In this document: positions 18,266 through 22,352 of the stretch, one piece after another | Numbering within the stretch: position 1 is the stretch's first letter | Layout of the letters: each line of letters begins with the position of its first letter | Virus record (IMG/VR): IMGVR_UViG_3300034198_011294 | Location: 1 to 22,687 of that record | Source: a virus | Reading direction: 5' to 3' (one strand) | DNA: 22,687 bases | Program-made: the position numbers and the translations under genes | The notes under the pieces: model-generated | The model's database searches: none | What the model was told of the DNA's origin: nothing | What the model saw: the letters and a program-made list of their open reading frames with translations, nothing else

Positions 18266-18571
18266 TCATGCATTCGTGAAACCGGGGTCCGGAATCTGTC
18301 CTGAATCAATCAACTTTTGCTGTTTGCGGTTGTGCTGCGCCAGCGCACGATGATTGACGTTGCCATCAATGTCCGTCCATCCGCGTTCGACCGCCCGCGC
18401 AGCAGGAACAGGGATCAGACTGCATCGGCAATTAAATCCACAAGGGGGGGCGCATTGCTGGCGGTCAAACATGTCCATGGTCCCGATGTAGCCGTGAAAC
18501 GCCGCATGCGTCGGGCGAGTCCGGTTGTCCCTGATTGCGCTGTATTCGACCAACGGCACGAATGCCTGCAC
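18266..18571 (-). CDS. MuF-type minor head protein, C-terminal half
   Basis: The first possible start is a GTG at 18571 with only a weak CGGGA upstream, but the frame is continuous with the 242-residue ORF upstream through a single in-frame TAA at 18604-18602. The sequence VEYSAIRDNRTRPTHAAFHGYI, then MDMFDR, APPCGFNCRCSLIPV is the end of the phage Mu F / SPP1 gp7 domain, with the conserved T/R-RP-H and P-GFNCRC elements. Alone it lacks the first half of the domain. It could be made by readthrough, by reinitiation, or not at all if the gene is broken. MuF proteins bind the portal and act in head assembly or DNA ejection. Confidence 0.7.
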   Translation of the reverse strand: MQAFVPLVEYSAIRDNRTRPTHAAFHGYIGTMDMFDRQQCAPPCGFNCRCSLIPVPAARAVERGWTDIDGNVNHRALAQHNRKQQKLIDSGQIPDPGFTNA

Positions 18572-18601
18572 CTTGGGATCCCGCAGCGTCTCCGCAAGCC
18601 C

Positions 18602-19330
18602 TTACGTCGATGCCCGATTCGTGTTCGTTCGCAACACCGTTTCCAGTCGCGCCGTCGTGAGATGCGTCCCCGTGACCGCCTTCGTCGTGGTCACGAAGTC
18701 ACCGAGATTCATCTTCCGTATCCACTTGCCCACCACGGACTTACCGGGACGCTCCTCAATGACGCGCGCAATCAATTCCTGCGTCTGCTTCGTCTGCTGC
18801 GCCGTCATTCCCGTGACGTAGAACGTATCGCGCATGACGCCCTTCCCGCCCGTCTTGTACCGCACCGCGCCACGCAGCAGTTCCCGCAATTCCGGCGTTC
18901 GCTCCAGCATGTCCTGCAGAGCATGCATTCGTTCATGTTGTGTGACATCCCCCGCACTCAATCGACACGCTTCCATCAACGAATCAAATTCATATCGCGT
19001 AATCGGGACGCGATTGCGAAACCAATTTGCAATCGGGCGCAGGTAATCCGCCGCAAAGCCCCGCAGCACCACGCCCGTATTCAAGGCAAATTCCTCGCGC
19101 TCTCCCGCAATGTTCCGAATGGCGCCATCCGTCATCCCAGAACCAGACACAACTTGCTTTGCGCCAAAGAGATACGACGAGAGCAGCAGCGCCGCCAACG
19201 CTTGATGAAAGATATCCCAATGCGAATTCGAATCCTCGCCGCGAATTTCCGCAGCAAGCGCCTTTCGATACGCCTGCTGCCCGTCGCGCAGCACATTCCG
19301 CAAATGCTTGTCCAGCGAGGATTTCGTCAT
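18602..19330 (-). CDS. MuF-type minor head protein, N-terminal half
   Basis: This ORF encodes 242 residues and ends at TAA. It is largely helical, with LFGAKQVVSGSGM, RGFAADYLRPIANWFRNRVPITRYEF, TFYVTGMTAQQTKQTQELIARVIEERPG and, at the end, LTTARLETVLRTNTNRAST. The last segment is the RTE/RTNT motif in the middle of the MuF domain, normally followed by a Tyr/Asn-containing helix and the RP-H and NCRC elements that appear in the same frame after the stop. MuF proteins are minor head proteins next to the portal. The ATG overlaps the portal stop (ATGA). The truncation point inside the domain makes a functional short protein doubtful. Confidence 0.8.
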   Translation of the reverse strand: MTKSSLDKHLRNVLRDGQQAYRKALAAEIRGEDSNSHWDIFHQALAALLLSSYLFGAKQVVSGSGMTDGAIRNIAGEREEFALNTGVVLRGFAADYLRPIANWFRNRVPITRYEFDSLMEACRLSAGDVTQHERMHALQDMLERTPELRELLRGAVRYKTGGKGVMRDTFYVTGMTAQQTKQTQELIARVIEERPGKSVVGKWIRKMNLGDFVTTTKAVTGTHLTTARLETVLRTNTNRAST

Positions 19331-20852: not shown

Positions 20853-22352
20853 TCAATCGTAAAACTTGCGCTTCACCGGACGCAAATCGTAGAACCGTGT
20901 CGGCGTTGTCTTCACCGTCATCGCTCCACCACGCGCGACAAACAATCCATTCGTTGCCGCATTGCACAAATCAACCACCACGTCCACCGTGTCATCGTGG
21001 TTGCCCGCAGGGAACGCCAACATCTCGTCCACCACCGGACGGAATTCGCGCGACACCTGCCCATCCGCACCCGAAGGGAAATGCAACTTGCCCTGCTCAA
21101 CAAACGGCTGCGCACCCGCGGCGCGCAAGTGCTTGTCCGCCCCACGCTCCACCGGAACCACCGGAATGCGACAGGATGATCGGAATTGATCGAAGACACC
21201 CTTCTGCGGCCCGTTCGCTTCCGCCATCGCCATCACGCACCCGCGACGCTCAATCAGTTCCCGCGCAAGCCTTGCAAACTCCGGGAAAGACTCACGCACC
21301 CGTAGGATGTCCGTCAAGTACAGATTCCGATTCGAATCCACTTCCCCCACGATGCACACGCTGTAGTCCGGGTCATCACGCTCCTGACGCTTGCGACCAT
21401 AGCCCCAGTCCATCGCCGCAATCGTCCGCGTACCCAAGTGTTCCCCGCGATGGTACTTCAGCCACTCCGCACGGAACACCAGCAGGTCCGAAGACAGCGG
21501 CACAAGTTCATACGCGCGGGCATACGCCATCGCTCCCATCTCGCGCCGATTACGCTCCAACAGTTCAGGCGTGAACACGTCCGGCCAAGGGGATACCGTG
21601 CCGTAACACGGACGGCGTAGCAACGTCCCACGCGCCGCGCATTCCCTGCGCCAATCCGCCGTCACGTCATCCGTGTGGAACGGCGTCGCCGTGCGCCAGA
21701 TTCGCCCCGGATGCGATGCCGACGGATCCAGCATCGGAAACCAAATATTGGCCAAGGCTTCCTTCACTTGCTCGCGTAAGGCTGGCTGCAGCACAGCGTT
21801 ACGCAAATCGCAGATATCGTCGGCCCATAACACGTCCGCACGGCCACCAGTACGCCCAAAGATACCGGACGCCTGCACGGACGGATCGCGGCGCGCCACC
21901 ATGCCCGGCGCAGTTACCGACCATGCCATGATCGTATCTTCGCCAGATTTCAGCGTGACATGCGGAAATATCGCGCGATATAGCGGAGAACGGATGACAT
22001 CGCGAAGAAACCGCGACGTGGCCGCGGCTGCGTCATCGTTGCTTCCGACCAACTTGATTCGCGTTCCCGGACGTTTGCCTAGCCACCATGCGCATAGGTA
22101 AGTAAGCGTTGACGTCTTCGCGTGTCCGCGGGGAATCTCTCCGTACCACGAGTGATGCGCGAGAGCATGCGCGATAAGTTCGCGCTGTAGCGGGGAAACC
22201 GCCTTGCCCAGCATGAGCGCAACGAATGCGGCTGGGTTATCGCGCGCTGCGGCGACGGCCGCGGCTGGCGTGAGCGCCGGGATCGCCGCGGGCGCATCGG
22301 CGGCCACGACGGGCAGCGTGTCCGATAGCGCGCCGTTATCCGGGTCCGTCAC
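20853..22352 (-). CDS. terL: Terminase large subunit
   Basis: I place the start at the GTG at 22352, which overlaps the preceding TGA (GTGA); an open frame reaches a GTG at 22388. The 499-residue protein shows both expected domains. The ATPase part has PRGHAKTS (about 74-81, a variant Walker A), a Walker B-like VLWADD (174-179) and TATPFH (about 221-226, coupling motif position). The nuclease part has AAMDWGYG (312-319), an acidic second site (MAEAN) and HDDTVDVV near the C-terminus (452-459), fitting the RNase H-like metal-binding acid residues. It cuts concatemeric DNA and drives it into the head through the portal. The N-terminal 45 residues are Ala/Pro-rich and disordered. The next gene is the portal, the usual order. 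Confidence 0.93.
   Translation of the reverse strand: MTDPDNGALSDTLPVVAADAPAAIPALTPAAAVAAARDNPAAFVALMLGKAVSPLQRELIAHALAHHSWYGEIPRGHAKTSTLTYLCAWWLGKRPGTRIKLVGSNDDAAAATSRFLRDVIRSPLYRAIFPHVTLKSGEDTIMAWSVTAPGMVARRDPSVQASGIFGRTGGRADVLWADDICDLRNAVLQPALREQVKEALANIWFPMLDPSASHPGRIWRTATPFHTDDVTADWRRECAARGTLLRRPCYGTVSPWPDVFTPELLERNRREMGAMAYARAYELVPLSSDLLVFRAEWLKYHRGEHLGTRTIAAMDWGYGRKRQERDDPDYSVCIVGEVDSNRNLYLTDILRVRESFPEFARLARELIERRGCVMAMAEANGPQKGVFDQFRSSCRIPVVPVERGADKHLRAAGAQPFVEQGKLHFPSGADGQVSREFRPVVDEMLAFPAGNHDDTVDVVVDLCNAATNGLFVARGGAMTVKTTPTRFYDLRPVKRKFYD

Follow-up and report, generated by a model that had tools for sequence, protein, structure and literature searches.

An internal stop codon in the MuF minor head protein gene of one metagenome-assembled phage record

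The gene for a MuF-type (phage Mu gpF/SPP1 gp7-like) minor head protein in the viral record IMGVR_UViG_3300034198_011294 is interrupted by a single in-frame stop codon, which raises the question of whether the phage makes this protein in an unusual way, in two pieces or by decoding of the stop, or whether the stop is a lesion in the genome or a mistake in the record. Here, the window, i.e., the whole 22,687-nucleotide stretch of this record, was compared with a near-identical record and with other viral contigs encoding this protein.

The interrupted gene and its neighbourhood

The initial annotation described a TAA codon that splits the MuF protein inside its conserved domain without naming the strand, which is the minus strand (Table 1). 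Read from 19330 to 18266, the frame comprises 355 codons, including the final stop, and its translation, MTKSSLDKH...VLRTNTNRAST*GLAETLRDPKVQAF...RPTHAAFHGY...CGFNCRC...PGFTNA*, contains a single internal TAA (18604-18602), past which the same frame runs on as far as a second stop (18268-18266). What follows the TAA matches the 112-position Phage_Mu_F profile (PF04233) with 42.2 bits, against a cutoff of 29.6; the N-terminal piece of 242 codons gave, on its own, no significant match in Pfam or PHROG. In an intact homologue, residues 216-306 match positions 27-112 of PF04233 (E = 3.1e-15), and the TAA at codon 243 therefore cuts the MuF domain, which is not continuous in this record. Thus, the translation and the extent of PF04233 confirm that an in-frame stop lies inside the MuF domain in the record as assembled, as had been proposed; the two parts had also been called halves, and the gene is indeed cut in two within the domain, but the term is loose for parts of 242 and 111 codons.

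Table 1. Coordinates of the features discussed in the text, as positions of the window.
Feature	Position	Strand	Basis or context
MuF (phage Mu gpF/SPP1 gp7-like) minor head protein gene with a single in-frame stop	18266-19330	minus	Translation and profile matches; relatives without an internal stop
In-frame TAA, codon 243, private to this record as judged by sequence comparison; sense codon for a conserved glutamate in relatives	18602-18604	minus	Translation and homologue comparison
N-terminal 242 codons, ending roughly a third of the way into the recognised MuF domain	18605-19330	minus	Intact homologue: domain match from residue 216
C-terminal 111 codons and stop, including the remainder of the MuF domain (RPTH, GFNCRC)	18266-18601	minus	PF04233, profile 67-112, E = 1.5e-10; phrog_220, E = 5.2e-14
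175-bp block with six synonymous differences from the near-identical record	21762-21936	minus	Terminase large subunit gene; directly beside the 123-bp end repeat of the near-identical record

The family assignment is clear for the intact homologue, which belongs to both PF04233 (57.3 bits; cutoff, 29.6) and TIGR01641, phageSPP1_gp7 (54.9 bits; cutoff, 39.65), and also matches phrog_220. The neighbourhood is that of a head module: the terminase large subunit gene (22388-20853) precedes a Mu-type portal gene (Portal_Mu, PF06074, E = 2e-46; 20841-19327), and the MuF gene comes directly after the latter, with which it overlaps by four bases. Hence the intact homologue and the place of the gene conform to the phage Mu gpF/SPP1 gp7 family, whereas a stop inside the domain was seen only in the present record. 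A search by sequence matched no solved structure to the intact homologue, and structure prediction gave a poor model (mean pLDDT of 44.9), onto which the stop was therefore not mapped.

The stop codon position in close and distant relatives

The closest record, IMGVR_UViG_3300032271_000680 from IMG/VR (hereafter G001; also labelled L002), is 36,276 bp long and ends in a 123-bp repeat, and is therefore apparently complete. It spans the whole window with seven substitutions and no gaps, and we conclude that the two records represent the same phage. One of the seven differences is in the MuF stop codon, at which G001 has a sense codon; over the 1065 bases of the gene this is the only one, so that the MuF gene of G001 is intact and otherwise identical. 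The remaining six are all synonymous and fall within a 175-bp block of the terminase gene (Table 1), which represents either real strain variation or an assembly junction. Outside this block, the nonsense change is the sole difference between the window and G001, with no synonymous changes around it, and no other nonsense, frameshift or amino acid change was found over the 22.7 kb. A search for further near-identical records, made around both the stop and the terminase block, recovered only G001.

Relatives in general were collected by two scans of IMG/VR, which yielded 40 distinct viral contigs encoding this protein. The position of codon 243 is covered in 38 of these, and all 38 have a glutamate, specified by one of its codons in 24 contigs and by the other in 14. 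The initial annotation had suggested that the stop arose by a one-base change from a Tyr codon; this proved wrong, as tyrosine occurs at this position in none of the contigs. The glutamate column is invariant over 18 alignment rows, and the surrounding motif, NTNRAxTEGLAETLRxPKVQAFVPLVEYS, is almost invariant among the relatives. No MuF gene among the 40 contigs has an internal stop, and none is split into two reading frames. Two scans of genome contigs recovered no relative, and blastn against phage records no similar DNA; with tblastn, the same records gave only distant MuF proteins, of about 31-36% identity among the matches listed. Judged by these comparisons, the stop is private to this one record.

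An intein-like insertion in the MuF protein of relatives

A separate feature of the family emerged from the same 40 contigs. In 11 of them, L066 (3001-4914), L025, L030, L063, L068-L072, L074 and L075, the MuF protein carries an insertion between GFN and CRC, 276 residues long in the nine measured over their full length. The insertion has features of a class 1 intein, namely a Cys as the first residue, a block-B-like TxxH (within ATANHPIL) and a final Asn followed by Cys+1. Its penultimate residue is a Ser; inteins usually have a His at this position (PMC4031507). The Pfam model Intein_splicing matches the insertion weakly and below its cutoff (E = 0.0017), and several NCBIfam models for proteins that contain inteins hit the inserted part, with a best E of 6e-6. 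Between L063 and L066 the insertion is 96% identical and the N-extein only 74%, a disparity that suggests, at the level of sequence, that the element moved horizontally or recombined. In L057, L058 and L060, which have no insertion, GGYSCRC replaces CGFNCRC, i.e., the insertion site is altered. A brief literature search found no report of an intein in a MuF protein. Neither the gene in the window nor that of G001 has the insertion, and the insertion site differs from the site of the stop.

Origin of the stop codon

Several explanations can be set against these data. That the stop is a consensus error in a single metagenome-assembled record, rather than a real but rare mutation, is the reading that we consider probable on the available comparisons. 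A single wrong base would have entered the consensus through sequencing, library damage or low-depth assembly, and the actual phage would have the whole gene, encoding next to the portal a 354-residue MuF minor head protein of the usual, unsplit kind. Because the stop is, by comparison, private, and because the near-identical G001 and all relatives covering the position are whole, it most likely reflects an error or, at most, one crippled copy. Moreover, true divergence should bring synonymous changes first, and a lone nonsense change therefore counts in favour of an error. By type, the nonsense change is a G:C to T:A transversion, typical of guanine that was oxidised in vivo or while the library was made. 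In these genes, 3.5% of random substitutions and 7.5% of G:C to T:A changes create a stop, although this rarity is no test by itself, since the site was picked for being a stop. Against an error stands the terminase block, the differences in which are plausible strain variants and indicate that the window and G001 did not simply come from reading one set of molecules twice; a second population could thus carry the stop as a true variant.

The last point leads to the main competitor of a consensus error, a real nonsense mutation in a defective phage genome, either a minority or locally dominant, which we regard as possible though on balance doubtful. The truncated protein would lack the greater part of the MuF domain; its phage would be less fit or helped by intact genomes in co-infection. 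Apart from the six synonymous terminase differences, which look like true strain variation, such a mutation finds a precedent in SPP1: loss of its MuF protein, gp7, leaves assembly unaffected and about 25% of the virions still infectious (PMC6316719), so that MuF-type proteins can be partly dispensable and a real null genome is possible. However, every other relative covering the position (38 of 38) has kept the Glu codon, and no second sign of decay relative to G001 was found over 22.7 kb. For the same reason, i.e., no other lesion relative to the intact copy, a decaying prophage is unsupported. The initial annotation had listed a nonsense mutation or an assembly error among its options, and this option is the one favoured by a stop that seems private in a gene otherwise identical to an intact copy.

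The options that assign the stop a function fare less well. Readthrough or suppression of the TAA, through near-cognate decoding or a host suppressor tRNA, would give some full-length protein, and the open frame with 111 conserved codons past the TAA is what readthrough would require; a change that is very recent or unreal explains it equally, however. The stop is conserved in none of the 38 relatives covering the position, neither the window nor the complete relative G001 yielded a tRNA gene, and TAA terminates 11 of the 23 listed genes. Because the gene matches the intact G001 copy everywhere except in the stop itself, the stop did not bring with it a new ribosome-binding site, start or recoding signal. 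We thus regard readthrough, for which no sequence feature speaks, as highly unlikely. A general or local reassignment of TAA was likewise rejected, given the use of TAA in the 11 genes and the lack of a tRNA gene; the prior view that TAA is not generally recoded here was correct. A natural two-gene arrangement, in which the TAA terminates the N-terminal part and reinitiation at GTG codon 254 or 258 starts a second protein, appears even less credible, to the point of being barely worth entertaining. These in-frame codons do lie 11-15 codons past the stop, with weak Shine-Dalgarno-like pairing (-4.1 and -3.9 kcal/mol, respectively), but the same codons in the same context are found in the intact G001 copy, 12 of the 23 listed genes have stronger pairing at their starts, and roughly the first half of the MuF domain would be missing from the second protein. 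Natural splitting with reinitiation was therefore rejected and, as a conserved design, is refuted, since no relative encodes two separate proteins. A stop both real and dominant in a natural population, with a phage that either lives without full MuF or relies on readthrough or suppression in its host, is most improbable.

Thus, the observation is true and its cause is most likely ordinary, with no new way of making the protein. The case is a caution to consult near-identical records, before invoking readthrough or splitting, whenever a phage gene assembled from a metagenome shows an isolated stop; here, one such record settles the stop as private. If the stop were true, the gene would be a naturally occurring null allele for a head protein the role of which is still poorly known.
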